Shown here: piece by piece, positions 7,771 through 26,248 of the stretch
Position numbering within the stretch: the first letter of the stretch is position 1
Layout: the number at the start of each line of letters is the position of its first letter
Assembly (NCBI GenBank): GCA_020437385.1
Contig: JAGQWL010000348.1
Span: 1 to 42,530, forward strand
Origin: Bacteroidota bacterium
GTDB taxonomy: Bacteria > Bacteroidota > Rhodothermia > Rhodothermales > JABDKH01
Length of the DNA: 42,530 bases
Reading direction: 5' to 3'
Program-made: the position numbers and the translations under genes
The notes under the pieces: generated by a model
Database searches by the model: none
Told to the model about the DNA's origin: nothing
The model's input: the letters and a program-made list of their open reading frames with translations, nothing else

Positions 7771-8700
7771 CTAGAAGGCGATACCTTCGAAGTCGACCAA
7801 TTCCTTGAGACCGTCTTCCAGCGAATAACCCGGCTTGACTCCGGTGGCGGAGACCAACCTCGAGATGTCGGCCATCTGGTGCGGTTTGTCGACCGGCCGC
7901 AACCGTGCCTCGTCCACCGAGATTGTGATCTCGGATCCCAGAATCTGCCCAAGCATCTGCACGATTTCCTCGGCTGAATACTCGATTCCCGTCCCGACGT
8001 TCGCTATCAGCAAGTCTCCCTTGTCCACTTGAGACAATCCGTACAATGATGCGGCGGTATCCTTAACGAAGATGTAATCCCGCTTCGTATAGATGTTGCC
8101 CAACTCAATCGACGGACCAGTCTTCAAACTGTCCATGATGTGCGGAATGAGATGGTCGTTCGTCTCATACGGGCCATACGTGTTGAACAGACGGCCAATG
8201 CGGACGGTCAGTCCACTGGATCTGTGATAGTAGTCCAGCACAGATTCCATGATATGCTTTGACAGGCCATAGATATCCACCGGAACGGCGGGCGTTGCTT
8301 CTGTCAGCAACCCGTCGGTTCCAGGGTAGCAGGCACCTGTGGACGCCGCAACGAGTCGCTTGACGCCCGCCGCTGCCGCCTGTCTGCACACAATCTCCGT
8401 ACCCTCGACATTGACCCTGAGCGTCTCGGCCGGATGGGCGTTGCAATAAGGGATGAAGTGGTGTGCCGCAAGATGAAAGACGATATCGGGCCTGGCCTTC
8501 GCAAGGGCCGTCGACAACCGTTCTTCGTCGAGGATGTCCGCCTCAACAAGCGCGACCCGATCACCAAACTCGTCCAGGTTGGATTTCCGGCCTACACACA
8601 GGTTATCGTACGCCGTCACCTCGTGCCCATCTGCAAGGCAGCGCGCGACAACCCAACGGCCGATAAATCCGGCCCCTCCCGTTATGAAAACTCTTGCCAT
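7771..8700 (-). CDS. NAD-dependent epimerase/dehydratase (GalE-like extended SDR)
   Basis: The 309-residue protein is an extended short-chain dehydrogenase/reductase. It has the NAD-binding loop GGAGFIG at residues 8-14, the HLAA strand near 76-79, the catalytic Ser120/Thr121 region (AASTGACYPG) and the YxxxK pair Tyr144/Lys148 (DIYGLSK). The sequence is closest in style to UDP-glucose 4-epimerases and related nucleotide-sugar epimerases. It probably interconverts a nucleotide sugar used by the locus, but the substrate nucleotide and carbon are not readable from the sequence. It is the last gene of its block, 4 bp after a glycosyltransferase stop codon, and is followed by a 278-bp gap. Confidence 0.85.
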   Translation of the reverse strand: MARVFITGGAGFIGRWVVARCLADGHEVTAYDNLCVGRKSNLDEFGDRVALVEADILDEERLSTALAKARPDIVFHLAAHHFIPYCNAHPAETLRVNVEGTEIVCRQAAAAGVKRLVAASTGACYPGTDGLLTEATPAVPVDIYGLSKHIMESVLDYYHRSSGLTVRIGRLFNTYGPYETNDHLIPHIMDSLKTGPSIELGNIYTKRDYIFVKDTAASLYGLSQVDKGDLLIANVGTGIEYSAEEIVQMLGQILGSEITISVDEARLRPVDKPHQMADISRLVSATGVKPGYSLEDGLKELVDFEGIAF

Positions 8701-11195: not shown

Positions 11196-12221
11196 TTAGC
11201 CGGCCTGCTGGTGCACGGGGTCGCTCAGCGTCTCGTGGCCCAGCCTGCTCAGTTCTGTGAGGTCGACGCCTTTGTAAGCCCGGTATACCCAGCGAAAGAG
11301 TGGGACGCCGATCGATGGTGGAAGCAGCTGACCACAAAACACCTGCAGTATGTTCTTGATCCCGGAACGACGGAAGTAACCCGTCGACATCAGCTGACGC
11401 GACTCCGCCACTCTGCCATGAAGCAACAAATCCGTCACACCTTGTCTCGTCATTTCAGAGAGAGCGGCCCTCCTTCGGGTTTCCACATTTGGCCGATATC
11501 GAATGTCGAGCAGTGACAGTACCAGATCTCCGAAACCAACCATGGAAGTCGTGGCGCGATCGTCATGGTAGCGAATCTCTGACACCTGCTCCTTGCAAAA
11601 AAGGAAGCGGATGTCATCGGACGCCATTCGAATGTAGAGTTCCGTATCGCCCTTGGTCAGGTGGGTCCGCAGTCTGTACCGCCTGAATACGTCAGCCCGC
11701 GTGAGTGATGCGGCAATCGCAACCGAGGCGCACCATACGGCGTGCTCAGCCTGCTCGCTGGACAGAGGTCCGGGCGTCAGGTTTGCGCGTCCGAATCGTG
11801 CTTCCATGTCGGTCGTCAATTGCACATCCTCACTACCGGAATCATCGATTACCTTGTGGTTCGCAAAAACAATGTCGACGTCATCCGACACGTTCGCGGC
11901 GAGGTGGGCAAGACCGTCCGGCAGCAGGCGATCGTCATCGCCAATAAAGATGAGAAACTCTCCGCGTGCAGCATCCGCAATCGCATTCATGTTTCCCGAC
12001 ACGCCGAGGTTTTCCTCGTTGAGTTGATACCGGATTTTCGGGTTGCGATCGACCTGGTCCAGACACCACTCCTGGACTCGCTCGCGGACTTCGCTATCCG
12101 GATGCGGGTTCTGACTGATAAGAATTTCGTAGTCGTCGAAACTCTGCGCGAGCGCACTATCCACCGCCTCCTGCAGATAGGTCAGTCTTCGATATGTTGT
12201 GATTCCAATCGTGACCAGCAT
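11196..12221 (-). CDS. Glycosyltransferase family 2
   Basis: The 341-residue protein has a GT-A fold domain. It opens with MLVTIGITTYRRLTYLQEAV, has the QSFDDYEILIS strand, and has the metal-binding acidic motif in GEFLIFIGDDDRLLPDG near residues 90-105. The C-terminal third (SEIRYHDDRATTSMV onward) probably binds the acceptor and ends in a short amphipathic segment without clear membrane spans. It transfers a sugar with inversion, using a nucleotide-sugar donor. It begins the short run of three glycosyltransferases plus the GalE-like enzyme, 108 bp after the PIG-L gene. Confidence 0.85.
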   Translation of the reverse strand: MLVTIGITTYRRLTYLQEAVDSALAQSFDDYEILISQNPHPDSEVRERVQEWCLDQVDRNPKIRYQLNEENLGVSGNMNAIADAARGEFLIFIGDDDRLLPDGLAHLAANVSDDVDIVFANHKVIDDSGSEDVQLTTDMEARFGRANLTPGPLSSEQAEHAVWCASVAIAASLTRADVFRRYRLRTHLTKGDTELYIRMASDDIRFLFCKEQVSEIRYHDDRATTSMVGFGDLVLSLLDIRYRPNVETRRRAALSEMTRQGVTDLLLHGRVAESRQLMSTGYFRRSGIKNILQVFCGQLLPPSIGVPLFRWVYRAYKGVDLTELSRLGHETLSDPVHQQAG

Positions 12222-12329: not shown

Positions 12330-12986
12330 TTACATAAACCCAAGTACGGCCTTCCGAGAATAAAACGCCTCCGCCCAACCAGATTCCGAAGCCGACTCCA
12401 TCCCTCTTAGTCGCAGCAACGCACGAAACGTATCCTCGGAGAACCAGTGTTTGTTCCGCTGCGAGGCGAAGCTGCGCTCAAGGCCCTGGACCTTGAAGGC
12501 AACATCATCGGCAGAGAGTTTGACGAACAGGTTCGGCTGCCCCAGGTCGCCGTCATACTTTGGCACTTCGTATTCAAGAACGAGGTGATTTCGGAATGTC
12601 TGCCAAGTCAGGTCAGAAAGTGTCCGATGGTCCTGATGTCGATCGTCACGATAATGCGTGAACACAACGTCGGGTTCAAAATCTCGGAGACGCGTCGCGA
12701 AGACGGACTTGATCTCCTGCGCTTCGAACGGAAAGTGTCCGTCCGTAAACGTAGCGAGATCTATCGTGGACGTACCGCAGCCGTCGAGAAAATGAGACGC
12801 CGCGTTTCGAGCCTCCTCATGTCGTTCGGTAGTACCGGACGCTACAAACCAGTAGACAGCGACATCTCGTCCGCTCGCAATGAGTCGACGGATGGTTCCT
12901 CCACATCCAATCTCTATATCATCCGAATGCGCGCCGATGAACAGTACACGGATGGCGCGATCCAGATTCGGAAACACGTTGATCAT
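12330..12986 (-). CDS. PIG-L family (GlcNAc) deacetylase
   Basis: The 218-residue protein has the zinc-binding signatures of the PIG-L/LmbE family: AHSDDIE with His20 and Asp23, and HYRDDRHQDHR with His111, His117 and His120. These enzymes remove an N-acetyl group from sugars such as GlcNAc-inositol, or from sugar nucleotides and antibiotics. Its ATG overlaps the stop of the cytidylyltransferase gene as ATGA, so it is translated with the nucleotide-sugar cassette. That makes an amino sugar made by the cassette, or the lipid-linked product carrying it, the likely substrate. No signal peptide is visible, so a cytoplasmic location is inferred. Confidence 0.87.
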   Translation of the reverse strand: MINVFPNLDRAIRVLFIGAHSDDIEIGCGGTIRRLIASGRDVAVYWFVASGTTERHEEARNAASHFLDGCGTSTIDLATFTDGHFPFEAQEIKSVFATRLRDFEPDVVFTHYRDDRHQDHRTLSDLTWQTFRNHLVLEYEVPKYDGDLGQPNLFVKLSADDVAFKVQGLERSFASQRNKHWFSEDTFRALLRLRGMESASESGWAEAFYSRKAVLGFM

Positions 12987-13783
12987 CGCGCACCGATCAG
13001 GGTGTCCTCCCTCTTCCAGACCTGCCAGGGTGCTTCTCCCTTGTCAAACAGGTCGTCGAGGATTTGCTTTTCCTTGAACGTGTCCATGCACGCCCAGAAG
13101 CCGTCGTGGTGGTAAGTGACCAGTTGCTCCGCCTCAATCAGTCGACGGAATGGTGCTTCGACCAGTTCGTCACCCGGCTCCATGTAGTCGAATATCTCCT
13201 GCTTTAGAACGAAGAAGCCTCCGTTGATCCGAAGCCCGGACCGCAACACGCTGTCGATCTTGCGGACCGTACCGTCCGAATCGCTGTCGACAACATGGAA
13301 CGTACCGTTCGGTTCGACGCCGATGAAGCAGGCGACCTTATCGTGCTCCTCGGCGAAACGAACCATATCATTGATGTTGACATCCGAAACGCCATCGGAG
13401 TAGTTGGCCAGAAAACGTTCCTCGCCTTCAAGGAGGTGCTTGACGGCCATCAGCCGTTCGCCAACGCACGCGTTGAGCCCCGTATCCACGCACGTAATTG
13501 TCCAGCTCTGGATGTCGGAGGAGAGCAGTTCGAGTTTCCGACCGCCCTCCGATAGCACGAAGTCGTTAGACAGGGCTTCGGAGTAGTTGAGGAAGTACTC
13601 TTTGATGTAATTGGCTTTGTGACCGAGCGCGAGAATAAAATCGGTGTGCCCGAAGTGGGCATAGTACTTCATGATATGCCACAGAATGGGCCGATACCCG
13701 ATCGGGACCATTGGTTTCGGGATGGACTCAGAGTAGTCTCGCAGCCGCATTCCCTGTCCGCCGCAAAAAAGTACAACCTTCAT
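12983..13783 (-). CDS. rfbF: Glucose-1-phosphate cytidylyltransferase-like nucleotidyltransferase
   Basis: The 266-residue protein has the sugar-nucleotidyltransferase signature FCGGQGMRLRDYSESIPKPM at the N-terminus. It also has the family-typical ILWHIMKYYAHFGHTDFILA, FLANYSDGVSDVNI and INGGFFVLKQEIFDYM segments, which are characteristic of the RfbF (DdhA) type that makes CDP-glucose from CTP and glucose 1-phosphate. The length is close to that of the family. CDP-glucose is the usual entry to 3,6-dideoxy and branched CDP sugars. The usual partner, CDP-glucose 4,6-dehydratase, is not found in this window. The gene overlaps PIG-L by four bases and follows the aminotransferase by about 100 bp. 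Another hexose-1-phosphate substrate cannot be excluded. Confidence 0.88.
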   Translation of the reverse strand: MKVVLFCGGQGMRLRDYSESIPKPMVPIGYRPILWHIMKYYAHFGHTDFILALGHKANYIKEYFLNYSEALSNDFVLSEGGRKLELLSSDIQSWTITCVDTGLNACVGERLMAVKHLLEGEERFLANYSDGVSDVNINDMVRFAEEHDKVACFIGVEPNGTFHVVDSDSDGTVRKIDSVLRSGLRINGGFFVLKQEIFDYMEPGDELVEAPFRRLIEAEQLVTYHHDGFWACMDTFKEKQILDDLFDKGEAPWQVWKREDTLIGAR

Positions 13784-13881
13784 GTGATTTCAGTTTTCGA
13801 CCCGTTCCTTACTTGTTTAATCCGCGATACCGGTATCGGCACGAAATGGCATTTGTTGACAGGCATGACGACCCGAGGGGG

Positions 13882-15189
13882 TCAATTAAAGCGCCGGTAG
13901 ACCGGTTTCACTGAATCTCCTACAAGATAACCTTCTATTCCGTTCTCGAGTGCCGCCTTATAAACCTGCAACGCGCCGGCGCAGGCCTCCACGGTTCGGT
14001 CGATGTCCTCGTCTGCGTGGGAGTAGTTCACAACAAAAGACGGTGCGATAACGCCGCGGCGAATCAGCTCCTGCAGAAACAGCGTACGGTACGGCTGCGA
14101 CGACACGCCTTCCGGGTCGCGCGTAACAAAATACATGTTACTGGCCATGCCTTGAACGGAAAAATGATCGCCCAGGCCGCTAGCCTGAATCACTTGATTC
14201 ACACCAGATCGAAGTCGTTCGCCCTGGCGCGCAAGCGTTCCCACTACATCTTCCGTTTCGTAAACTTCCATTGTTGCGATGGCCGCCGCGAGCGAGTGGT
14301 TCTCGGCACCGTGCGTCGTCGAAAGCAGGAACACCCGCTCACGACTGTGAAAGAGTCCACCGACCTCCATGAGGTCGCGGCGTCCGGCAAGGGCCGAAAG
14401 AGAAAACCCATTGGCGAGCGCCTTCCCCCAGGCTGACAAATCCGGCGTGACGCCAAAGTATGCCTGCCCTCCGCCATTGTGAAGTCGGAAACCCGTGATC
14501 ATTTCGTCGAAAACGAGAATCGCTCCCCTTCGTGTGCAGATGTCTCGTACGGATTCCAGGAATCCGTTCTCCGGTTCCTCGTTCCGGGCCGGCTCCAGAA
14601 TGACGCAAGCAATCTCATCCGGATAGGCATCGAAAAGTGCGTCGAGCGAGGCGGCGTCGTTATAGCGAAACAACAGTGCCTCCTCGCGCGATGAGACGCC
14701 GACTCCACTGTCGACATCCGTCGTGGCAATGAACCAATCGTTGTACGAAAAGAAGGGATGGTCGGAACAGAGCGCCACGCGATCGCGACCCGTGTGCGCT
14801 CTCGCCAGTTTCACGGCAGCCGTTGTGACGGTAGATCCGTCCTTGGCAAACTTGACCTGCTCTGCCGCCGGAATAAACGAAAGGAGCTTCTCGGCGCACG
14901 CTACCTCGACTGGCGCCGGGCGCGAGTAGTTGTTACCGAGCAACATCTGCCGATGCGCCGCCTCAACCACTGAATCGTATGCGTGACCAAGCGTGACCGA
15001 ACGGAGTCCGCTTCCGTATTCGATGAATTCGTTTCCGTCGACATCCCATACATGACAACCTTTTCCCCTTGCGATAAAGCCAGGTGACTCCAGCGGAAAC
15101 TGGTCATCACCCTTCGCATAGGTATGACAGCCTCCCGGGATGAGCTGGTGGGCAGTCTTCTGAAGCTGCCTTGACTTGTCGAATTGCAT
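13882..15189 (-). CDS. Class III PLP aminotransferase (glutamate-1-semialdehyde aminomutase-like)
   Basis: The protein is 435 residues from the ATG at 15189. This start gives the family-typical opening MQFDKSRQL...IPGG. A GTG 17 codons upstream is possible but overlaps the neighbour. PLP-binding features are the FAKDGSTVTTAAVKLARA segment near 114-131, Asp228 in LVFDEMITGFR, and the Schiff-base Lys256 in AWGKALANGFS. The closest named relatives are HemL-like enzymes, but HemL is not expected inside a sugar cluster. Class III aminotransferases also occur in nucleotide-sugar and secondary-metabolite pathways, so amination of a keto sugar or of a side chain is inferred. The gene follows the DUF4910 gene by 40 bp. 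Confidence 0.85.
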   Translation of the reverse strand: MQFDKSRQLQKTAHQLIPGGCHTYAKGDDQFPLESPGFIARGKGCHVWDVDGNEFIEYGSGLRSVTLGHAYDSVVEAAHRQMLLGNNYSRPAPVEVACAEKLLSFIPAAEQVKFAKDGSTVTTAAVKLARAHTGRDRVALCSDHPFFSYNDWFIATTDVDSGVGVSSREEALLFRYNDAASLDALFDAYPDEIACVILEPARNEEPENGFLESVRDICTRRGAILVFDEMITGFRLHNGGGQAYFGVTPDLSAWGKALANGFSLSALAGRRDLMEVGGLFHSRERVFLLSTTHGAENHSLAAAIATMEVYETEDVVGTLARQGERLRSGVNQVIQASGLGDHFSVQGMASNMYFVTRDPEGVSSQPYRTLFLQELIRRGVIAPSFVVNYSHADEDIDRTVEACAGALQVYKAALENGIEGYLVGDSVKPVYRRFN

Positions 15190-15229
15190 ATATGGCGCCG
15201 TGCGTTTGCCGATCGGAAGAGATCCAGTA

Positions 15230-16552
15230 TTACCGCACACTCGTCAGCAGTCCCTGCTCTGTAAGCGTGTCGGCAACTTTTCCCAGTCGATCAAATCCCA
15301 TACCGGATCGCTCCGCGATGTCCAGGAGTGAGTTGGACCCATCTGCCAGGTTGAGAATCCACAACATTGCCATCTGGTCTTCCTGAGCGTCCGCGTAACC
15401 TCCCATCATGCGATAAAGTCCGCGACGACCAAGCTGCGGTTCGCATTTTGGATTTAGATTAACATACGTCCGGTTCTGCTCAAGGCATTCCACTATCTCC
15501 ATGAAGCGCAGAAGTGAGCCTTCAAGCGCCACCGGCGTCACGAAGTCCGGATTGTCCGCAGACGTGTGGTACTCAGGGAACTTTCCGTGAGGCGTTCGCG
15601 ACAAGCAGCCGAGCGGCAAGTTGAAGCCCGGCGAACAGTACTGGCGCTCATCGTAACCGTACGGAGAGAAATCTCGAATTCCGTAAGGCTCTCCAGATCT
15701 ACGCAGAATGTGTTCAACGACACGGTCAATTTCCGCCGTACCTCGCCGACTCTTCTTGTAGTGGAAATGACCCGGGTCGCCCACGCACGCGACGACAAGA
15801 CCATGTTGGATTCTGGCAACACGGCTTTCATTTCGCGCCAGCCAGGTGATTGAACCAATCGTTCCCGGTACAAAGACGAACCGATACGAGAACCTGCGCC
15901 GATCGGCCTTGAGAATCCGATCGGCCAGAAACGTCAGAAGCGCGACGCCGGAAAGGTTGTCATTCGCCAACGACGGATGACAAACGTGTGTTGAAAACAG
16001 CACTTCCTCTTCAGACTCACCGGGTACAAACAACTCGCCATAGTTTAGCACGCCCGGCTCGAGTGAGCTGCGGACAACAACGCGGTAGTTTCCGTCCTTC
16101 AGGTTCTCGAGCTGATGGTGCGAGAGGCAAAAGCCCCAATCCCTTTTGTAATACGACGTGCGATACGGGATGTGGTCCGGCATTGCCGGATTCGAAAAAA
16201 GATGCGGCTTGAGCTCCTCCAGAGAGACGGTCGCATCAACAGGCTCGCTGTAGTTGAGCAGGTGCAGGTTGTTGTCCCGAAAATCGATCAGCCGATCGCC
16301 GTCCGGCCCTTCGATCCATGCCTCCGATACGTTCCACTCGTCCGGGATCTCCCAGTCAAAAACCTTCGTCCCGCTTGGGACTTCGTGAATATCGATACCG
16401 ATTCGTTCCCGAATTCGCCCGAGCGTGTCTCGTGTGCCCTGCCCGGTTATGCTCCTCAGGATCGGAAAGAGTTCAGATACAAACCGATGCATCGCCTCGC
16501 CAACGGGAAAGCGAGAATCATCGGGCTGTTGATGTATCGTCGTAGGCTGCAT
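15230..16552 (-). CDS. DUF4910 aminopeptidase-like protein with C-terminal winged helix
   Basis: The 440-residue protein matches the DUF4910 architecture: an M28-type zinc-peptidase-like fold with an inserted DUF2172 domain and a C-terminal winged-helix segment. Possible metal ligands are seen in STHVCHPSLANDNLSG and in KFPEYHTSADNPDF. Early on it has ELFPILRSITGQGTRDTL, a hallmark of the family. The last about 75 residues (MAMLWILNLADGSNSLLD onward) look like the winged helix. The reaction is unknown. Family members recur in polysaccharide and sugar-nucleotide clusters, so a hydrolase or amide-forming role on an aminoacylated sugar is a guess. Its start lies inside the end of the RmlC-like gene (35-bp overlap). 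A Met at codon 21 would remove the overlap and is an alternative start. Confidence 0.8.
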   Translation of the reverse strand: MQPTTIHQQPDDSRFPVGEAMHRFVSELFPILRSITGQGTRDTLGRIRERIGIDIHEVPSGTKVFDWEIPDEWNVSEAWIEGPDGDRLIDFRDNNLHLLNYSEPVDATVSLEELKPHLFSNPAMPDHIPYRTSYYKRDWGFCLSHHQLENLKDGNYRVVVRSSLEPGVLNYGELFVPGESEEEVLFSTHVCHPSLANDNLSGVALLTFLADRILKADRRRFSYRFVFVPGTIGSITWLARNESRVARIQHGLVVACVGDPGHFHYKKSRRGTAEIDRVVEHILRRSGEPYGIRDFSPYGYDERQYCSPGFNLPLGCLSRTPHGKFPEYHTSADNPDFVTPVALEGSLLRFMEIVECLEQNRTYVNLNPKCEPQLGRRGLYRMMGGYADAQEDQMAMLWILNLADGSNSLLDIAERSGMGFDRLGKVADTLTEQGLLTSVR

Positions 16553-17081
16553 CGATTGAGAAGTCTGCGTATTCGGCGTCGCGGTCCTTGACCACGACTA
16601 CCTTCGCCGGCCAACGAATCGCGAATGCCGGATCATCGTAGCGAAACCCGGAAGCCGCCGATGGCTCGTAGACGTTGGACATCTGATAGAACACCTCGGA
16701 ATCGTCTTCGAGCGTAAGAAAGCCGTGCGCAAATCCCTTCGGAATGTACAAAGCGCGGCCGTTCTGTTCGGTTAGTTCGACACCCGCGTATTGCAGGAAC
16801 GTTGACGATCCTCTTCGAACATCAACGATAACGTCAAAGATGGCTCCCCGCGTACACCTTACAAGCTTTACCTCACCGAACGGAGAATGCTGAAAGTGCA
16901 TCCCACGCAACGTGCCTCGCTGTCTGTTGAATGACACGCTGCACTGCACAAGCTCGGCCTCAAGGCCCTGCGCCGCGAACTCCTCGCTGCACCATGTTCG
17001 AGCAAAGTAGCCCCGCTCGTCTTCGAATCGCTCCTGCGAAACGAGCCAGGCTCCCGAGACGTTCAGCGGTTCGAAAATCAT
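16518..17081 (-). CDS. dTDP-4-dehydrorhamnose 3,5-epimerase-like cupin (RmlC/RfbC family)
   Basis: The 187-residue protein is a cupin with the RmlC features: GTLRGMHFQ with the catalytic base His62, PKGFAHGFLTL with His119, and EVFYQMSNVY with Tyr132 and Tyr138 in the position of the catalytic acid. The length fits the family. RmlC enzymes epimerise C3 and/or C5 of a 4-keto-6-deoxy nucleotide sugar. Next to RfbF and a C-methyltransferase the substrate may be a CDP- rather than dTDP-linked keto sugar. That is inference. The gene is 36 bp after the methyltransferase stop. Confidence 0.87.
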   Translation of the reverse strand: MIFEPLNVSGAWLVSQERFEDERGYFARTWCSEEFAAQGLEAELVQCSVSFNRQRGTLRGMHFQHSPFGEVKLVRCTRGAIFDVIVDVRRGSSTFLQYAGVELTEQNGRALYIPKGFAHGFLTLEDDSEVFYQMSNVYEPSAASGFRYDDPAFAIRWPAKVVVVKDRDAEYADFSIDAAYDDTSTAR

Positions 17082-17117
17082 AATGACGGGTTTCCGAAAC
17101 TTCGGGCAAGGACCGAG

Positions 17118-18407
17118 TCAGTCGATGACAGTGACTTCCGGAATCGGCACGACGAACCTTCCACCCCACTCTCGAACATCAGCCATCTGCTCGATTATTT
17201 CGTCTTTGAGATTCCAGGGTAACACAACAATATAGTCCGGCTTCTCCTCGAATATCTTTTCAGGTGTGTAAACAGGAATACGAGAGCCGGGCAACCACGT
17301 ACCCTGCTTGTACGGATTGCGGTCGACAGTGAAGTCGATGAAGTCTGTTCCGATGCCGCAGTAATTGAGAAGTGTGTTGCCCTTACCGGGTGCGCCGTAG
17401 CCTGCGACCTTTTTTCCCTGCCGTTTCGCCTCTATCAGAAACTCGAGCAGCTTTCTCTTGGTTTCGCGTACACGTTCAGCAAAATCGGAATACGCGGCGA
17501 GCCCCGTCAGTCCAGCTTCCTCCTCTCGCGCGAGCATCTCCGTCGCGCGCTCGGACTGTGGCTTGGTGGCATCATCATGATGACATCCGAATATCCGGAT
17601 CGATCCACCGTGCGTGGGAAGCTCCTCAACGTCAAAAAGTCGGAGCCCGTGGGCAGCAAAGATCTTCGAAGCGGTCACGAACGAAAAATATCCGAAGTGC
17701 TCATGATAGATGGTATCGAACTGATTCTCGGCCATCAAGCGCATCAGATGCGGAAACTCGATCGTGATAACTCCCCCGGGATTGAGCAGGATCTTCATTC
17801 CACCAACGAAGTCATTCAAGTCCGGGACCTGAGCCAATACGTTCTTGCCGAAGAGAAGGTCTGCAGCGTATCCATCCTCCTTCAGTTTAGTCGCACTGTC
17901 GCGTCCAAAGAAGACAACTCGCGTGGGGACACCCTTCTCCTCAGCGACCTTGGCAACGTTGGCAGCAGGCTCAACGCCCAGCGACGGAATACCAGCCTGC
18001 ACGAAGTACTGCAGGGCATAGCCGTCGTTGCTCGCAACCTCCACAACCTGACTCCCCGAGCTCAGACCAAATCGTTCGATCATGTAGCCCGCATACCTCT
18101 TAACGTGAGCGAGCCATGAATCCGAATAGGAGGAGAAGTAGGCGTACTCCGTAAAGATGTCTTCTGGATCCACGTAGCAGTCGAGCTGCACCAGATGGCA
18201 GTGCTCGCATACGAAGGCGTGTAGCGGGTAGTAGGTCTCAGACTTATTCAGGTCTTCCGACTTAACCACGTTCTGGCAAAGGGGACTCATCCCCAGATCC
18301 ACGAAGGAATATTCCAGTGGCTCATCGCAGAATCTGCAGCGAAAGCCGGGAATGATCATGCGGGCCGGGAGTCGTTCTGCCTCCGGCGACAGGGAGCTTG
18401 TTGTCAT
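17118..18407 (-). CDS. SAM-dependent sugar C-methyltransferase (zinc-binding, TylCIII-like)
   Basis: The 429-residue protein has the three-part design of NDP-sugar C-methyltransferases. An N-terminal zinc site has CRFC (Cys24, Cys27) and CEHC (Cys67, Cys70). A SAM-binding Rossmann domain has VVEVASNDGYALQYF near 130-145. The C-terminal domain has VAGYGAPGKGNTLLNYCG and FTVDRNPYKQGTWLPG. Known relatives add a methyl branch at C3 of 4-keto deoxysugars, for example on the way to mycarose-type sugars. It therefore predicts a branched-chain sugar in the polymer. It lies between the SDR and the RmlC-like epimerase in a tight operon. Confidence 0.9.
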   Translation of the reverse strand: MTTSSLSPEAERLPARMIIPGFRCRFCDEPLEYSFVDLGMSPLCQNVVKSEDLNKSETYYPLHAFVCEHCHLVQLDCYVDPEDIFTEYAYFSSYSDSWLAHVKRYAGYMIERFGLSSGSQVVEVASNDGYALQYFVQAGIPSLGVEPAANVAKVAEEKGVPTRVVFFGRDSATKLKEDGYAADLLFGKNVLAQVPDLNDFVGGMKILLNPGGVITIEFPHLMRLMAENQFDTIYHEHFGYFSFVTASKIFAAHGLRLFDVEELPTHGGSIRIFGCHHDDATKPQSERATEMLAREEEAGLTGLAAYSDFAERVRETKRKLLEFLIEAKRQGKKVAGYGAPGKGNTLLNYCGIGTDFIDFTVDRNPYKQGTWLPGSRIPVYTPEKIFEEKPDYIVVLPWNLKDEIIEQMADVREWGGRFVVPIPEVTVID

Positions 18408-18433
18408 GGATTCTGCAGCTTCGTTTCGTCCGT

Positions 18434-19474
18434 TCAGAGCGTATGCGCGGGAGACCAGCGGAGGTCATCCTGAAGTTCACCCGACGCCAGCATTTCTCGA
18501 ATGTGATCAATTCGACGATAGCGCGGCCCCTCGAATTCATCCGGCGAAAGTCCACTGTCCCGAAGCGTGGCATACACCTCTTCTACTCCCTTTCGCGCCG
18601 TCCACGTAGGACGGTAGCCTGGAATTGCCGCCTGGATTTTACTGAAATCGACCTGGTAGGATCGCTTGTCCGGACTTGCACCGTCGGCGAACGTCACCTC
18701 GCAGCCGGGCACAACTTCTTCGACCAGCCTGGCAATGTCGCGGATCTGATAGTTCTCTTCACTGCGGCCGACATTGTACGCTTCGTTATGAATGACGCTC
18801 CGATCGACATCAAGCGCAGCAATAAAGGCGAGAGAAATGTCTCGTATGTGAACGATTGGGCGCCACGGTGACCCATCGCTTTTGATGAGGATCTTTCCCG
18901 TGGTCACGGCCCAGGCGACCAGGTTATTGAGCACGAGGTCAAATCGAAAGCGAGACGAAACGCCATACGCGGTCGCGTTTCGGAAATACGTAGGGCTGAA
19001 GTCAGGCGTCGCCAGCTTGGCGATGTCCTGCTCGGCCAACACCTTGGCCTTGCCATAAGGCGTCACAGGATTGAACGGTGCCGTCTCCGTAACGGCATCC
19101 TGCCCGGCCGCACCGTAGAGGCTGCACGAAGATGAAAACAGAAATCGCTCGACGCCCGCTTCCCGAGACAGCTCGGCAAGTCTGACACTTCCATGGTGGT
19201 TGATGTCATACGTGAGATCCGGATTCAGATTGCCGAGCGGATCGTTCGAAAGATTGGCAAGATGAATGACCGCCTCGAAGCCGGCAAGATCCGAGCGCGT
19301 GACATCCCTCACATCCTTCACAATCTCGGGTATGCTCGAAATACCTTCCTCGGAATAGGAACAGTCGGCAAAGAGATTCGAGTCGAGTCCGACGACTTCG
19401 TGCCCCGCTTCAAGCAGCATGGGTACCATAACGGTTCCAATGTATCCGTTATGGCCAGTAACCAGTACGCGCAT
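18434..19474 (-). CDS. NAD(P)-dependent SDR, nucleotide-sugar epimerase/reductase
   Basis: The 346-residue extended SDR has the GHNGYIG cofactor loop (residues 7-13), HLANLSNDP near 71-79, the SSSCSLYG catalytic strand and the active-site pair Tyr140/Lys144 (TPYGKAK). It heads the seven-gene cassette. By position it is a candidate for the keto-reductase, or for an unusual dehydratase or epimerase, acting on the same sugar as the C-methyltransferase and RmlC-like enzyme. It does not obviously match CDP-glucose 4,6-dehydratase. The ATG at 19474 places the cofactor loop at the N-terminus as expected. Confidence 0.85.
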   Translation of the reverse strand: MRVLVTGHNGYIGTVMVPMLLEAGHEVVGLDSNLFADCSYSEEGISSIPEIVKDVRDVTRSDLAGFEAVIHLANLSNDPLGNLNPDLTYDINHHGSVRLAELSREAGVERFLFSSSCSLYGAAGQDAVTETAPFNPVTPYGKAKVLAEQDIAKLATPDFSPTYFRNATAYGVSSRFRFDLVLNNLVAWAVTTGKILIKSDGSPWRPIVHIRDISLAFIAALDVDRSVIHNEAYNVGRSEENYQIRDIARLVEEVVPGCEVTFADGASPDKRSYQVDFSKIQAAIPGYRPTWTARKGVEEVYATLRDSGLSPDEFEGPRYRRIDHIREMLASGELQDDLRWSPAHTL

Positions 19475-19578: not shown

Positions 19579-20571
19579 CTAACTCACGGTGACGACTTCC
19601 GAGTCCTTTTCCACTCCCGATTTCTCGGGGACGGCTGGACGGTTCTTTGACCGGGACTCCGAACGAATCAGTCCCAGCTCCAATCCGAAGTAGTTGTGCT
19701 TTCCGGGCAGCAACAGGTTCTTCAGGACGGTTGTGCGAAGTCCATGCCGGAACAGATACCACGTGGCGGCCAGCTTGGTAATCGGCGAATGGTGACTTGC
19801 CTTGAAGAGCCGGAGATAATCAATGATGGCCCGGCCGGCGGGAAAAATGAGCCCTCGGGGCTTTCGGCCGGTAAGCAGCTCCGCGAGTTCCCGCGTCGAA
19901 CGGGTGGATGTGTTATTAGTGTGGTACCGCTGAATAAACAGCCCGGGTTTTACGGCAGCGCTGCGACCGCTCGTTGCGAGCTGCGTGAGTAAGAGCCGGT
20001 CAGCTCCGAAGTAATCCTTGTAGGGCATGAAGTCCGCCAATACCTCGCGGCGGAAAACTCCGTGCACCACCCCACTCCATCCGTGCAGGAGGATCGCAGC
20101 CCGAAGCCGGATCCGGGGGTTCGGCGAAGCAAGATGCTTCATCAAGGACGGTTCAAACGGTTCCCTGGCCAGGAGCCCGCCATGATCCGTCATGATCGCC
20201 AGTGAATAGGCGCACGAGATGCCCGGGTCGCGCCGGAACTGGTCCATGCACTCTTCCAGAAAGGTCGGCGCACAAAGGTCATCGTAGGCGTGCCACTTGA
20301 AGAATGGCGAACGCGAAAATTCGAACGCCTTGTTCCAGTTGGCGGCCAGTCCGACATTCTCGCGGTTCCGGATATAACGAACGCGAGGGTCCTGCTCGGC
20401 AATCGCCCGGCAGATTTCCGCAGTCCGGTCCGTTGACGCATTGTCACAGACGATTACCTCGAAATCTTTGTAGGTCTGCGCCAGGAGCGACCGGAGCGCC
20501 TGCTCGATGTAGGCCTCTCCGTTATAGACGGGCAGGCCGATTGCTACCGTTGGTACCGATGAATAAACCAT
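19579..20571 (-). CDS. Glycosyltransferase family 2
   Basis: The 330-residue protein has a clear GT-A domain: VAIGLPVYNGEAYIEQALRS, TYKDFEVIVCDNASTDRTAE and the acidic motif in KWHAYDDLCAPTF near residues 90-103. The C-terminal half lacks strong membrane spans and includes FIQRYHTNNTSTR. It probably adds one of the first sugars after the initiating enzyme, because it is the next gene after the WbaP-like transferase. The donor is unknown. A 17-bp repeat copy lies two bases upstream of its ATG, across the expected ribosome-binding region. Confidence 0.87.
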   Translation of the reverse strand: MVYSSVPTVAIGLPVYNGEAYIEQALRSLLAQTYKDFEVIVCDNASTDRTAEICRAIAEQDPRVRYIRNRENVGLAANWNKAFEFSRSPFFKWHAYDDLCAPTFLEECMDQFRRDPGISCAYSLAIMTDHGGLLAREPFEPSLMKHLASPNPRIRLRAAILLHGWSGVVHGVFRREVLADFMPYKDYFGADRLLLTQLATSGRSAAVKPGLFIQRYHTNNTSTRSTRELAELLTGRKPRGLIFPAGRAIIDYLRLFKASHHSPITKLAATWYLFRHGLRTTVLKNLLLPGKHNYFGLELGLIRSESRSKNRPAVPEKSGVEKDSEVVTVS

Positions 20572-20733: not shown

Positions 20734-22251
20734 CTAGTAAGCGCCCGAACCCTTTATGACGGCACGATACGTACGGACGAGAATGACGATATCAAGCCAC
20801 ATGGACCAATTCCGTACATAATACCCATCGAATCGCTCCATCGCATCCCGCCCGACATCGCTACGTCCGGAAACCTGCCACAGGCCGGTGATGCCAGGAC
20901 GAACGCGAACGCGTAGATCAACGATTCGCTGATCCAACGCCTCCTGATGATAGTCGGGCAGCGGTCGCGGGCCCACAATCGACATGTCACCGCGAAGAAC
21001 ATTGTACAGCTGCGGCAACTCGTCAATCGACAACCTTCGCAGGATCCTGCCGATACGGGTGATACGCGGGTCGCGACGCAGCTTGTGGAATTCATTCCAC
21101 TCCCGACGAAGCTCCTCGTTCTCGCTGAGGGCGTGCTGCAGCACGGCTTCGGCGTTCGGAACCATCGTCCGAAGTTTCCAGAGAGTAAACGTTCGACCGT
21201 TCAGCCCGGATCGATCCTGGCCGAAGAAAGGGCTCTGTCTGTCCTCGAGCCAGATGAGACCCGCACAGGCGAGCGACAACGGCAGCCAAACGATGGCACC
21301 GAGTCCAGACACCAGGAGATCCACGGCCCGTTTCATTGTTCGGGCCAACGGACTCAAGAGGTTACTGGTAATCTCAAGGCCGATCGAGCCGCCAATGTCC
21401 CGCGGACGTACCCACAGGCTCGGGATGTCGAGCAGGTTCGGAATGACGATAACCTTGTGGTAGTGGGACAGCGTGCCTTCCATATACTCGGCAAGACGGG
21501 CGCGCGTCAGACTCGGCATTGCAAAGATGGCAACCGGGGCGTTCTTTCTTACGAGTTGCGTCCCGCCAACCACCGGTACTCCGGAGACGTTTGACTTCCG
21601 TGTCCTGGGATCGTCATCGAACACGGCAACCGGAATGTAACCCAGTCCGGCCTCCTGCTGAAGGATCGGAACGAGGCGGCGACCGGTGTCGCCCGCCCCG
21701 TAGACAACCGTCGGTACTCCCCAGAGTCCCTTTCGCACCAGAAGGCGCCTGACTCGTGTACGGATCAACGGTACAAGAGTCAGCGAGAAGATGAGCGCCA
21801 ACCCATATGTCAGGCGGCTGGCCTCGCTTATCTGCTGGCTGAAGAAGAGAAGGACTGCAAGCGAGAAATAAACCGAGAACAGAAGAATAGACGAGCGTCG
21901 GAGTTCCTCGACCGGGCCAAGGCCCCACCCCGGCAACAAACCGGTCGAGACGGCGCCGGTGCCCCACGCCCCGATTACAAACCAACTCCACTTTGGATCG
22001 AAGGGCTGGCCGAGCAAAAAGTATCGGATGGCACCCGCCATCACCAGCGACAAACCGAGCGCAAACGTGTCGCCCGCGGCAATCGCAAAAGCATTCTGAA
22101 ACGAATGCCGAAGATAGAGGAATGAGGGGCGCCTGTGCTCCCGAACCGATCTAGGCGTCTCAGAATGCGACGGCTTCCTGTCTCGTGTCGAGACATCTAT
22201 GCTCGAAACGGGAGGGGCAAGCTCCTGAACAACTGCGGTCTGTTCTTCCAT
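20734..22251 (-). CDS. wbaP: Undecaprenyl-phosphate sugar phosphotransferase (WbaP-type initiating enzyme)
   Basis: The 505-residue protein has four N-terminal membrane helices, a central Rossmann-like domain (VVYGAGDTGRRLVPILQQE) and a C-terminal Bac_transf domain from about residue 305. That domain holds KRAVDLLVSGLGAI, the TLWKLRTM motif, RRLSIDELPQLYNVLRGDMS and VGPRPLPDYH, which are the signatures of polyprenyl-phosphate phosphoglycosyltransferases. It transfers a hexose 1-phosphate (galactose or glucose in characterised WbaP enzymes) to undecaprenyl phosphate at the inner membrane and so starts each repeat unit. It heads its own transcript, 378 bp from the upstream gene and beyond a terminator. 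The symbol reflects architecture; the sugar is not established. Confidence 0.92.
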   Translation of the reverse strand: MEEQTAVVQELAPPVSSIDVSTRDRKPSHSETPRSVREHRRPSFLYLRHSFQNAFAIAAGDTFALGLSLVMAGAIRYFLLGQPFDPKWSWFVIGAWGTGAVSTGLLPGWGLGPVEELRRSSILLFSVYFSLAVLLFFSQQISEASRLTYGLALIFSLTLVPLIRTRVRRLLVRKGLWGVPTVVYGAGDTGRRLVPILQQEAGLGYIPVAVFDDDPRTRKSNVSGVPVVGGTQLVRKNAPVAIFAMPSLTRARLAEYMEGTLSHYHKVIVIPNLLDIPSLWVRPRDIGGSIGLEITSNLLSPLARTMKRAVDLLVSGLGAIVWLPLSLACAGLIWLEDRQSPFFGQDRSGLNGRTFTLWKLRTMVPNAEAVLQHALSENEELRREWNEFHKLRRDPRITRIGRILRRLSIDELPQLYNVLRGDMSIVGPRPLPDYHQEALDQRIVDLRVRVRPGITGLWQVSGRSDVGRDAMERFDGYYVRNWSMWLDIVILVRTYRAVIKGSGAY

Positions 22252-22628: not shown

Positions 22629-23699
22629 CTACACCTTCTCGGTCCAGCGCTCGTGATTGGCTTCGTAAATCTCACCCAGGATCCGAGGAACATCGTACCG
22701 GATGTCCCAGTCCGGATAGTGAGCCTTGAACTTATCAAGATCGCTGATATACCAGATGTGATCTCCCGAGCGATTCGCGTCCGAATACGAGAAGTTCAGC
22801 TCCCTTCCTGCGATCTCATTGCAGAGGTCAATCCCCTCCAGCATCGAGCAGTTCGACTGCCGGCCACCTCCGATGTTGTAGACTTCCGCGGATCGCGGCG
22901 CCTTGTAGAACTCGTAAAACGCCGCGATGAGGTCCGCCGAGTGGATGTTGTCGCGAACCTGCTTGCCTTTGTAACCGAATATCGTGTACGGCTGACCGGT
23001 CACGGTGCACTTCATCAGGTACGCGAGGAAACCGTGAAGCTGGGTACCGGAATGGCTCGGTCCGGTGAGACATCCGCCCCTGAAAATGGCGGTCTTCATG
23101 TCAAAATACCGGCCGTACTCCTGGACCAGAACGTCGGCGGCAACCTTGGACGCGCCGAACAGCGAATGCTTGGACTGGTCGATGCTCATGTCCTCCGCAA
23201 TTCCCTTGTGGTAGCGATGCGACGCTTCAATCTCCCACCTCTTCTCCTGCTCGACGAGTGGAAGGAAGTTCGGCGTGTCGCCGTAGACCTTGTTGGTCGA
23301 CGTAAAGATGAACGGCGCATCGGGGCAATGATGGCGTGCCGCCTCGAGTAGATTCAGCGTCCCATTCGCGTTCACACTGAAATCCATGAACGGGTCGCGC
23401 GCCGCCCAGTCATGGGACGGCTGTGCAGCGGTATGGACGATCAGCGAGATATCCGTTCCGTAACGCTTGAACAACTTCTCGACTTCCGCATAGTCTCGGA
23501 TGTCGAAGCTCTCGTGGATGTAACCCGGCAGGTCCTGCTCCAGACGGGCCCGATTCCAGGAAGTCGACGCCTCCTCACCGAAGAACACCTTCCGCATGTC
23601 GTTGTCGATTCCGACAACCGTCATCCCAATGCTTGAGAAGAACCGAACAGCCTCGGAACCGATCAGACCCGCCGATCCCGTGATGATTGCAACACTCAT
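22629..23699 (-). CDS. CDP-paratose 2-epimerase-like SDR with Phe in place of catalytic Tyr
   Basis: The protein is 356 residues from the ATG at 23699, which has an AAGGGAAAG ribosome-binding sequence just upstream. It has a cofactor loop GSAGLIG (residues 8-14), HTAAQPSHD near 89-97, [13 protein letters not shown] near 132-144 and [13 protein letters not shown]. This pattern resembles the CDP-paratose/tyvelose 2-epimerase group. The usual YxxxK pair is FGASK here (Phe181, Lys185), so the normal proton-relay tyrosine is absent. A conserved subfamily with this substitution appears to exist, which argues against simple decay. The gene is a single-gene transcript ending in a strong terminator. 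Role: probably modification of a CDP-linked sugar; reaction uncertain. Confidence 0.82.
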
Positions 23700-23821
23700 G
23701 CTTTCCCTTTTTGGATATTTTGGACCGACTGGATCAATTGCACCGGGATCCGGAACGGATTTCCAATACAAATCGAACGAGAGTCCATTGGAAGCGCTCA
23801 GCCAGCCGCTGACCACTTAGT

Positions 23822-23875: not shown

Positions 23876-23930
23876 TCGCGTAACGGTACTCGCGCAACGG
23901 TAATCGTGTAACGGTATCGCCTAACGGACC
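23876..23930. repeat. Four tandem 13-14-bp repeats
   Basis: Units TCGCGTAACGGTAC, TCGCGCAACGGTAA, TCGTGTAACGGTA and TCGCCTAACGGACC follow each other without gaps at 23876-23889, 23890-23903, 23904-23916 and 23917-23930. The core TAACGG (CAACGG in the second unit) is kept. The last unit reaches the final base of the beta-helix gene's stop codon. Iterated spacing near one and a half helix turns could suit protein binding, or the array may simply be a slippage product. Confidence 0.75.
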
Positions 23931-26248
23931 TAATGTGCGACGGTGATGGCCTTCGTGTCCACGTAAACTGCGCCGTCTGCCTTGCCGACCAGGCGGACGT
24001 AGTACAATCCGGAAGTGAGATTGGATCCATCAAGAAAGAGCGAATGGCTCGAACTCGCTGCCATCTGTCGATCCGGAGACCGGAACACGATTCGGCCGAG
24101 CAGATCGAACACCTCATAATGAACCTCAGCGGTCCGCGGAAGCGAGAAGGTCAGCGTAGTGGACTCGGCGAACGGATTCGGATAATTCCCCGTAAGCTCA
24201 AAATCTACTGCATCTTGAAGATCGTCGATGCCAACAGCGTTGGCGTTCTGCCCGCGCGAGATCGAGACGTCCGACACCTTGTAACCAATTGTTGTCGGAC
24301 CGTTCGGGCGCAGTCCCACGACGAATCGGAGCTCGTTCGTCCCTTCAACAAAGAAGTCGCTGCTTACTTCCACCGAATCGCGAACCCAGCGGGTGGCGCC
24401 GATGAGTCGTTCACTGATCGGGACCTCGTGCCCATTGACGAAAAGCTGCATCTCGGATACCTCGTTCAGGTCGAACGTGGACATCGAGATGTATGCCGAA
24501 GGAGCATTGTCCAGTGAAACGTCCACGTTGCGCGTGACTGCCGTCCGCTCAGATTCACCTAGCAGATCAACAACGTCGTTGGGTCGCGGAACTGCGCAGA
24601 TGTCTCCGGGCGATGACCGATCGAATGTCGAGTGGCGCCCCTGACCCGTCGAGTTCTGCCAACCCGCAAGCGTCAGGTCGTTGTAATCGGGAAATCCGAA
24701 CACATTGTCCCGGCTCGGATGATGCCACTTGTTGTAATCCACCGTGAACGATCGGAGAAACTCGGCCCACTCGGCGTGTTTGAAGTCGGTATCGATGAGC
24801 GTGGGTCCTTTCGCATACGGATGATGGAAGATCTCGGACCCGAGGAATTCGTTATTCGTAACGGTCCAGTCCTTGACCTTCAGCGGCAGCTGGCTGCGCG
24901 TCTCGAAGTTCTGAATCACGCGCGTGCCCCCTCCCGCAATCAGCAACTGACTGAAGTTCAGCTCCACATCTTCCCGCGTGGCGTTCCGCGCAAACTTGTT
25001 TCCGTCGACGGTCACTCGTTGCGAGTAGGTCGTGCGAAGCCCGGACCATCCGTTATCACAAAAGACGCTGTTCTTGACGGTTATCGGACCCTGGCTTGCC
25101 TCGATCCATACGCCGTCCAAAAGATTGTCACTCACATTCAACTGGTCGAGAACGGCATCCGAGATGTCATAGTCGAGCCAGAGGCCGCGGCTGTAGTTGT
25201 TTTTCGCCGTGAGTCGGCGGATGGTCAGGCCGTGAACCGAGAGGAGCTTGTTTCCGATCGACCAGCCCTGAAATCCGCCCTGACGCCCGCGCCAATTGTT
25301 GAACGACGTTTCAGCATCCTGAATGTAGAGTCTCTTGTCGCGGAACATCCCCCAACCCTGCCCGCCATGGTAATTGAACTTCACGCGCCTGAGCGTAACA
25401 TCTTCGGATTCGCCCAGGTACAGGCCCTGCCAATTGGTCCAGAGAAAGTCGGTATCCTCGATTAGCGTCCGGTCGGAGCCCGAAATCAATACGGCGGCAC
25501 TTCCGTCCTCCCAGGCCGTTGCCGCGTGTTCGAAAACGATGCCGCGAATGGTCACCGCATCCTCGTAGAACTGCTCCCACAAGCGTTCGCGAACAGCCAC
25601 TTCGACCTTCGCGTTTTCCATGCTGATACCTGACGGCGGCGACACGTAAACCTTGTTTTCGGACTCATTAACGTAGAAGCGACCGGGCGACACCTCGCCC
25701 CGCGAAAGGACCTGTTCGAGGAACTCGCCCTCAACGAAGATCATCTCGCGACGCAGGACGATATCGGCAATCTCCCGAACACCATTCCACGGGTCAGGTG
25801 AAACACCCCAGTCGTACGGCCAGTCATGGACGTAAACGTCGTTCGCATCGAGCTGCCAGTCGGTCCAGATGTCCGCACCCGAAATCACGGCGGTGCCCTT
25901 GTGCTGTGCCTCGACGAGGATCGGGGTTCGATTGTCCGGATCGTTCGAGGGCCAATTCGTATAGCCAAACGAAATGAGCGGCTCACGGTACGTGCCCGGA
26001 TGAAGCACAACCCTGGTGCTCTGGTACTGTCGTTTCCACGCCACCGCCCTGTTCATCGCCTCCTGAATTGTTCGCAGGGGCGCACCTTCGGTGCCGTCAT
26101 TCGAATCCTGACCGATCGTGCCGACAGGATCAACGTGGATTGTGTGGTTGTACGTCTGACCTGCGGCCGAATAAACGGGCAGCAGAATTAGCAGAACGAG
26201 AGCAAGTTGAACCGGAGATCCAGATTCGGCACAAAAACACTTCCTCAT
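23930..26248 (-). CDS. Secreted right-handed parallel beta-helix protein with T9SS sorting domain
   Basis: The 772-residue protein has a signal peptide (LALVLLILLPVYSAAGQ). A beta-helix region follows, opening with a DSNDGTEGAPLRTIQEAM motif and then many coil repeats to about residue 540 (for example WTNWQGLYLGESEDVTLRR). A beta-sandwich-like segment spans about 560-680. A C-terminal type A sorting domain with GNYPNPFAESTTLTFSLP and SGLYYVRLVG covers the last about 85 residues. The sorting domain directs export through the Bacteroidota type IX system and anchoring or release at the cell surface. Beta-helix proteins of this kind include polysaccharide lyases, epimerases and hydrolases. No catalytic residues can be assigned. 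A close paralogue without the sorting domain lies next to it. Role in processing the polymer outside the cell is inferred. Confidence 0.87.
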   Translation of the reverse strand: MRKCFCAESGSPVQLALVLLILLPVYSAAGQTYNHTIHVDPVGTIGQDSNDGTEGAPLRTIQEAMNRAVAWKRQYQSTRVVLHPGTYREPLISFGYTNWPSNDPDNRTPILVEAQHKGTAVISGADIWTDWQLDANDVYVHDWPYDWGVSPDPWNGVREIADIVLRREMIFVEGEFLEQVLSRGEVSPGRFYVNESENKVYVSPPSGISMENAKVEVAVRERLWEQFYEDAVTIRGIVFEHAATAWEDGSAAVLISGSDRTLIEDTDFLWTNWQGLYLGESEDVTLRRVKFNYHGGQGWGMFRDKRLYIQDAETSFNNWRGRQGGFQGWSIGNKLLSVHGLTIRRLTAKNNYSRGLWLDYDISDAVLDQLNVSDNLLDGVWIEASQGPITVKNSVFCDNGWSGLRTTYSQRVTVDGNKFARNATREDVELNFSQLLIAGGGTRVIQNFETRSQLPLKVKDWTVTNNEFLGSEIFHHPYAKGPTLIDTDFKHAEWAEFLRSFTVDYNKWHHPSRDNVFGFPDYNDLTLAGWQNSTGQGRHSTFDRSSPGDICAVPRPNDVVDLLGESERTAVTRNVDVSLDNAPSAYISMSTFDLNEVSEMQLFVNGHEVPISERLIGATRWVRDSVEVSSDFFVEGTNELRFVVGLRPNGPTTIGYKVSDVSISRGQNANAVGIDDLQDAVDFELTGNYPNPFAESTTLTFSLPRTAEVHYEVFDLLGRIVFRSPDRQMAASSSHSLFLDGSNLTSGLYYVRLVGKADGAVYVDTKAITVAH

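Follow-up and report, generated by a model that had tools for sequence, protein, structure and literature searches.

A conserved seven-gene polysaccharide module and its proposed route to a methyl-branched amino sugar by C4 oxidation in place of dehydration

Several described systems come close to the genes studied here. In Campylobacter jejuni, Cj1427 oxidises C4 of a guanosine diphosphate (GDP)-heptose with the C6 hydroxyl retained; it binds reduced nicotinamide adenine dinucleotide (NADH) tightly, and the bound NADH is reoxidised by alpha-ketoglutarate, which becomes L-2-hydroxyglutarate (PMC10680097). Gene neighbourhoods have already connected DUF4910 proteins with modified surface sugars (PMC4000134). 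The genes SCO0381-0401 of Streptomyces coelicolor form an orphan 'deoxysugar' cluster (PMC2000904, PMC8062868). We analysed the contig JAGQWL010000348.1 of a Rhodothermales bacterium (42,530 nucleotides; hereafter the window, which spans all of contig C243 in an assembly of 488 contigs and 4.69 Mb, 93.7% complete), and specifically a set of seven genes on its minus strand which runs from a short-chain dehydrogenase/reductase (SDR) gene at 19474 to a PIG-L gene at 12330 within an exopolysaccharide locus. With moderate confidence, we read these seven genes as encoding a conserved pathway that makes an activated amino sugar with a methyl branch, destined for an exported polysaccharide, and in which C4 oxidation replaces dehydration.

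The set comprises, in order and all on the minus strand, an SDR of the Cj1427 type (18434-19474), proposed to be a nucleoside diphosphate-hexose C4 dehydrogenase, probably acting on a cytidine diphosphate (CDP)-hexose and giving a 4-keto sugar without dehydration; a sugar C-methyltransferase (17118-18407; PF08421, PF13489 and PF08484); an RmlC-like 3,5- or 5-epimerase (16518-17081; TIGR01221); a DUF4910, DUF2172 and HTH_47 protein with a mono-zinc M28-like fold (15230-16552); a class III aminotransferase (13882-15240; NCBIfam NF004856); a RfbF-like nucleotidylyltransferase of a divergent subfamily (12983-13783); and a PIG-L family zinc N-deacetylase (12330-12986; PF02585, 71 bits). An earlier sequence-only reading had placed these families here in one direction, with gaps of 105 bp or less and two overlaps. 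All of the open reading frames (ORFs) are present and the family assignments hold; the gaps are ≤ 98 bp within the set, the next glycosyltransferase gene upstream lies 104 bp away, and the overlaps number three (4, 11 and 35 bp) when the longest ORFs are taken. Relatives of the aminotransferase start aligning at around residue 18, which puts its true start probably inside the ORF, near 15189; with that start the 11-bp overlap may disappear.

The seven genes were found together far beyond this genome. Used as query against species genomes, the aminotransferase gave 80 loci, and when every ORF in 43 related loci was clustered without labels, the seven commonest clusters were exactly these seven families, which argues that the grouping is not due to chance. 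A neighbourhood search for the seven families, which the earlier reading had suggested, recovered the complete set in 52 of 83 related loci spanning Rhodothermota, Cyanobacteria, Acidobacteria, Krumholzibacteriota, Bacteroidota, Alpha- and Gammaproteobacteria and Actinomycetota, with Streptomyces making up the dominant share of the actinomycetotal count. Complete sets were found in Streptomyces, Nostoc and Sinorhizobium fredii NGR234 among others, the last having all seven families inside 12.3 kb of pNGR234b, and the same set is annotated on plasmids of Agrobacterium pusense and Neorhizobium petrolearium. Gene order differs among loci, so the set was not simply inherited as a single fixed operon. 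The closest order was found in the Rhodothermales locus L020, where a further SDR (SDR3), WbaP, a family 2 glycosyltransferase, the SDR, the C-methyltransferase, RmlC, DUF4910, the aminotransferase, RfbF and PIG-L are collinear with the window at approximately 50-79% identity.

We compared the SDR of the set to solved structures and found that its best relative was consistently Cj1427. This was the case for a single-sequence search (6vo6/6vo8; 125 bits vs 75 for the next structure), for a profile search (171 bits vs 110) and for the predicted structure (predicted local distance difference test 91), for which the top six Foldseek matches were all Cj1427 at about 30% identity; GalE-type SDRs were the second-best relatives. 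Y140, K144, S118 and the motif GxSxRxRxDxxxN, which is common to the Cj1427 type, are invariant or nearly so. The Ser-Tyr-Lys set is present and the Asp-Glu or Asp-Lys pair of dehydratases is not: the SDR reads SSCSLYG (SSCSxYG) where the two genuine CDP-glucose dehydratases described below read TTDKCY and ATDKVY. Sequence and predicted structure thus suggest that the SDR probably oxidises C4 without dehydration.

A CDP-glucose 4,6-dehydratase would be the usual source of a 4-keto sugar, and the earlier reading had noted that the module has none. In the module's own genome we found no match over the TIGR02622 cut-off (278 bits), and of 30 genomes with the module just 2 contained one, which makes it unlikely that, as had been proposed, the dehydratase is simply encoded elsewhere. 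In both of these genomes the dehydratase lies inside the module, between the C-methyltransferase and RmlC in L029 (3291-4334; 451 bits) and between DUF4910 and the C-methyltransferase in L034 (1631-2680; 403 bits), where it occupies the slot held by the SDR in the acidobacterial sister loci L026, L033 and L047. The SDR is missing from both of these modules, which belong to two different phyla. This exchange implies that the SDR stands in for the dehydratase as the source of a 4-keto nucleotide sugar, probably one carrying CDP, and the two enzymes thus look interchangeable in this role. The suggestion that the SDR had taken over dehydration was therefore right as to position and probably wrong as to reaction, given the lack of the dehydratase Asp and the relatives that point to C4 oxidation. 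Two other SDRs in the window (7771-8700 and 22629-23816) showed no dehydratase signature.

If the SDR works as Cj1427 does, L-2-hydroxyglutarate should be formed, and genes for its oxidation were found beside related SDRs. Across 296 genomes from the phylum we found 33 related SDR genes, and for six of them (G257, G183, G144, G211, G255 and G130) an L-2-hydroxyglutarate oxidase, called by NF008726 over its cut-off (299 bits), is the gene immediately upstream in the same orientation, 39-54 bp away; approximately 0.01 such adjacencies would be expected by chance, by our own estimate and given one or two such oxidases per genome. In module L035 the oxidase gene lies between RfbF and the SDR, about 20 bp upstream of the latter, and in the complete module L052 it is 1.7 kb away. 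A partial match in L040 (173 bits) was below the cut-off and was not counted. The order canonical RfbF, oxidase, SDR recurs in L106, L111 and L115, and with a gap in L114; it is followed by RmlC in L106 and L111, whose RfbF copies score 443-446 bits against TIGR02623, and RfbF, SDR and C-methyltransferase follow one another in L102-L104. These arrangements link SDRs of this family both with CDP-glucose and with the formation of L-2-hydroxyglutarate. The family assignments, the conservation of the unit, the lack of a dehydratase, its exchange with the SDR, the Cj1427 relationship and the oxidase linkage are all computed results.

The catalytic residues of the enzymes beside the SDR are intact. 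The C-methyltransferase is closest among solved structures to D-mycarose 3-C-methyltransferase (4rv9) and TcaB9 (3ndi), shares the three-domain architecture of the TylC3/TcaB9 type and has invariant N189, Y234, H235, E236 and H237; we take the Tyr, Glu, His and Asn of this type to be catalytic. The RmlC-like protein scores 167 bits against TIGR01221 (cut-off 155.75) with an invariant His-Asp-Tyr-Lys set (H62, K72, Y132 and D168). The DUF4910 protein matches 3k9t (CA_C2195) at 510 bits, retains the DUF4910, DUF2172 and HTH_47 architecture and has conserved equivalents of the zinc ligands H192, D198 and H329. In PIG-L the zinc motifs AHxDD and HxDH are invariant. K273 and D245 of the aminotransferase are also invariant. 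This enzyme had been called HemL-like, which holds for homology and not for enzyme identity: it scores 680 bits against NF004856 vs 221 bits against TIGR00713 hemL (cut-off 527), and, compared to the glutamate-1-semialdehyde aminomutase (GSAM) 3k28, the region of the gating Glu, which is presumably near position 406, is deleted in the window copy and filled in no module copy. By sequence it is a distinct family, for which the NF004856 name 'glutamate-1-semialdehyde aminomutase' is a misnomer.

The RfbF-like enzyme differs from its canonical relatives. It scores 223 bits against TIGR02623, below the cut-off of 300, as do the module copies in L029 and L020 (231-232 bits), vs 427-447 bits for canonical copies. 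R13, K23, D130 and D234, to which metal- and nucleotide-binding roles can be given by analogy with the family, are conserved; the Glu-Lys-Pro motif of 1tzf is absent here and from every module copy accompanying PIG-L. Public records name such module genes glucose-1-phosphate cytidylyltransferase and glutamate-1-semialdehyde 2,1-aminomutase, names for which the window copies fail the RfbF and HemL cut-offs.

From these comparisons we infer the individual reactions, their order and the identities of CDP and the hexose. The RfbF-like enzyme would couple cytidine monophosphate to a sugar 1-phosphate, presumably giving a CDP-sugar, and the SDR would then oxidise C4 and release a 4-keto sugar with its C6 hydroxyl retained, the bound NADH being reoxidised in the manner of Cj1427 as alpha-ketoglutarate is converted to L-2-hydroxyglutarate. 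The C-methyltransferase would add a methyl group at C3, beside the ketone, and the RmlC-like enzyme would epimerise C5, or C3 too if it acts before methylation; since no C3 proton is left after C3 methylation, it must either precede that step or act at C5 only. The aminotransferase would introduce nitrogen, most simply at C4, PIG-L would take off an N-acetyl group, probably one present on the starting sugar, and the mono-zinc DUF4910 protein may carry out some hydrolysis or transfer. The product would be consumed by flanking glycosyltransferases, for which the candidates are two family 2 enzymes (PF00535) at 19579-20571 and 11196-12221, both on the minus strand, the former having the same neighbour order in the Rhodothermales locus L020.

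It should be noted that several observations weigh against this pathway. Cj1427 acts on a GDP-heptose and is only about 30% identical to the module SDR. An adjacent oxidase is missing for most SDR copies, and the module's own genome contains no L-2-hydroxyglutarate oxidase at E 1e-60, which leaves NAD+ recycling there unexplained. The RfbF-like enzyme lacks Glu-Lys-Pro and falls under the CDP-glucose cut-off, so that both glucose and CDP are uncertain; given this divergence the starting sugar may, as the earlier reading had allowed, be one other than glucose. There is no acetyltransferase to account for PIG-L. Loci in Kribbella and Gordonia have no DUF4910, which is thus not always needed. Finally, aminotransferase homologues 66% and 63% identical to the window copy occur outside polysaccharide loci (L018 and L021), where they adjoin DJ-1/PfpI or an HpcH/HpaI-type aldolase; the enzyme may act on a small molecule instead of a nucleotide sugar, and its family may have a second role.

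Among the alternatives, one concerns the substrate only and is compatible with C4 oxidation: the RfbF-like enzyme might take an N-acetylhexosamine 1-phosphate and PIG-L might deacetylate the product, so that the pathway would start from a CDP-2-amino sugar. We consider this possible, if somewhat unlikely. PIG-L was found in 60 of 61 loci with an RfbF lacking Glu-Lys-Pro vs 0 of 14 with a canonical RfbF, and in L035 one canonical RfbF stands in place of both the divergent RfbF and PIG-L. These counts were corrected by eye for L034, L052, L108 and L111, and a weak 25% match in L117 was left out. The one locus without PIG-L among the 61, L042, is truncated at the end of its contig, and without Streptomyces, which contributes much of the 60, the figure becomes 26 of 27. 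An altered pocket for the sugar phosphate together with an obligate deacetylase suggests, as a hypothesis, an N-acetyl amino sugar as substrate. However, the divergent RfbF is probably one lineage and its pairing with PIG-L may be a single inherited event, no residue identifies a new substrate, and both dehydratase-bearing modules use the divergent RfbF too.

A rather unlikely arrangement is that of two sub-pathways, with the SDR, C-methyltransferase, RmlC-like, RfbF-like and PIG-L enzymes giving a branched sugar, and the aminotransferase and DUF4910 protein making or attaching a non-sugar amino side chain. The closeness of the aminotransferase to glutamate-semialdehyde aminomutases and its association with an HpcH/HpaI-type aldolase outside sugar loci are consistent with this, as are L101 and L112, which have the RfbF-like/PIG-L part without an aminotransferase in the retrieved stretch, and a Lautropia locus with the C-methyltransferase, DUF4910 and aminotransferase only. 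However, the Lautropia and Kribbella combinations cross the two supposed halves, and the clustering of 43 loci found no ligase or acyl-carrier protein conserved alongside the module.

We regard it as improbable that the SDR is now a 4,6-dehydratase in its own right, in which case the route would be a conventional one to a 6-deoxy, C-methyl CDP-sugar and its first enzyme would be the unusual element. The dehydratases which replace it in L029 and L034 do indicate that a 6-deoxy product is acceptable downstream there, but the SDR has no Asp-Glu or Asp-Lys pair beside its catalytic Ser/Thr, is closest to Cj1427 rather than to any dehydratase, and as a self-contained, hydride-returning dehydratase would need no adjacent L-2-hydroxyglutarate oxidase. 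That the SDR is an ordinary C4 epimerase, with the 4-keto sugar for methylation coming from another contig, is very improbable despite its GalE-type second-best relatives and a dTDP-glucose 4,6-dehydratase (dTDP, deoxythymidine diphosphate) on contig C369 (TIGR01181, 452 bits, cut-off 365), since nothing ties the C369 gene to the module, no dehydratase is conserved with it among the 43 clustered loci, and both the SDR/dehydratase exchange and the oxidase linkage speak against it.

The surrounding exopolysaccharide locus also holds several glycosyltransferases, a Wzy-like protein, an SLBB export protein and a WbaP-like undecaprenyl-phosphate sugar-1-phosphate transferase (20734-22251, minus strand; TIGR03022, 418 bits, cut-off 403). 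In the SDR adjoining WbaP (22629-23816, minus strand), YxxxK reads FGASK, with Phe for the catalytic Tyr; its counterpart at the same position in L020 is 75% identical. Two separate Wzz/GNVR chain-length tyrosine-kinase-like proteins (5198-7492 and 37358-39880, minus strand) suggest two polysaccharide systems or duplicated control. There are also two right-handed beta-helix proteins (23930-26248 and 26655-28220, minus strand), the first of which bears a Por secretion-system C-terminal tail.

In other genomes, a protein of about 300 amino acids with no Pfam or NCBIfam match (L033, 7463-8374; also near modules in L022, L030, L026 and L036) lies inside the module in Nostoc and Acidobacteria; its His/Asp spacing resembles Fe(II)/2-oxoglutarate oxygenases and it is perhaps an optional tailoring enzyme. 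In Lautropia dentalis a reverse-transcriptase gene, which looks to be of the group II intron type, lies between the aminotransferase and a canonical RfbF (L025, 11641-13017, minus strand). Another CDP-sugar oxidation pathway is perhaps encoded in L120 (8088-11448), where a canonical RfbF is followed by an L-2-hydroxyglutarate oxidase and a Gfo/Idh-type dehydrogenase, and in L017 (12766-17749), where RfbF is joined by two more genes of SDR/UGDH type, by RmlC and by a gene of that same Gfo/Idh type.

The literature searched contained no description of the seven-gene set, of a CDP-hexose or CDP-glucose C4 dehydrogenase or of a link to L-2-hydroxyglutarate oxidase. The earlier view of one unit making an unusual branched amino sugar, probably CDP-linked, without a 4,6-dehydratase and with no described counterpart, is supported. 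The Anabaena HEP island alr2825-alr2841 has similar annotations (cytidylyltransferase, epimerase and rfbC; PMC4390870), and alr2828 has been listed among glycosyltransferases (PMC2211374); as the likeness is by annotation alone, we make no claim that it is a module copy. Tentatively, the whole may be an undescribed pathway of many phyla, in which an alpha-ketoglutarate-driven CDP-hexose C4 dehydrogenase, coupled to L-2-hydroxyglutarate oxidase in some genomes, leads to a CDP-linked C-methyl amino hexose with its C6 hydroxyl. The amino sugar that enters it would come from a new RfbF subfamily paired with PIG-L, and DUF4910 would catalyse a new step that depends on zinc. If so, C-methylation could proceed on 4-keto nucleotide sugars that are not 6-deoxy, a family of surface-sugar 'epimerase/dehydratase' SDRs could be re-annotated as C4 dehydrogenases making L-2-hydroxyglutarate, and the presence of L-2-hydroxyglutarate oxidase genes inside polysaccharide operons would be explained. 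DUF4910, whose structure was published in 2014 without a reaction, would gain an experimental frame, and the product of the orphan SCO0381-0401 cluster would get a name and become testable in tractable strains such as NGR234.

As proposed, the module resembles the Cj1427/Cj1430/Cj1428 route to GDP-D-glycero-L-gluco-heptose in C. jejuni (PMC10680097), where a related SDR oxidises C4 without dehydration and an RmlC-like epimerase acts next, on the way to a capsular sugar. That route differs in its GDP-heptose substrate and in its final C4 reductase, and as described has no C-methyltransferase, aminotransferase, DUF4910, PIG-L or RfbF. The RfbF/RfbG pathways (yersiniose and ascarylose) share an RfbF-like cytidylyltransferase, and an RfbG-type dehydratase replaces the SDR in L029 and L034, whereas the genome studied here has no RfbG and a divergent RfbF, and its product is predicted to keep O6. 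TylC3/TcaB9-type pathways (D-mycarose and D-tetronitrose) have the same C-methyltransferase family and an RmlC-like epimerase; their sugars are dTDP-linked and 6-deoxy, whereas the module has no dedicated dehydratase. The DUF4910 neighbourhoods already reported place this family with a nucleotidyltransferase, a sugar epimerase and a methyltransferase in surface-sugar operons of many phyla; the main text of that report, in which CA_C2195 lies in a sialic-acid-like cluster, proposes neither the seven-family set nor C4 oxidation (PMC4000134). In Streptomyces, the order of L054-L096 fits SCO0392 (methyltransferase), SCO0395 (epimerase/dehydratase), SCO0400 (epimerase) and SCO0401 (aminotransferase), matched by published gene kind and position, and 'deoxysugar' is probably the wrong name for SCO0381-0401 if C4 oxidation is right. 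What is probably new here is that an entry by C4 oxidation, known from GDP-heptoses, would here lead to a C-methyl amino sugar which is likely to be CDP-linked.

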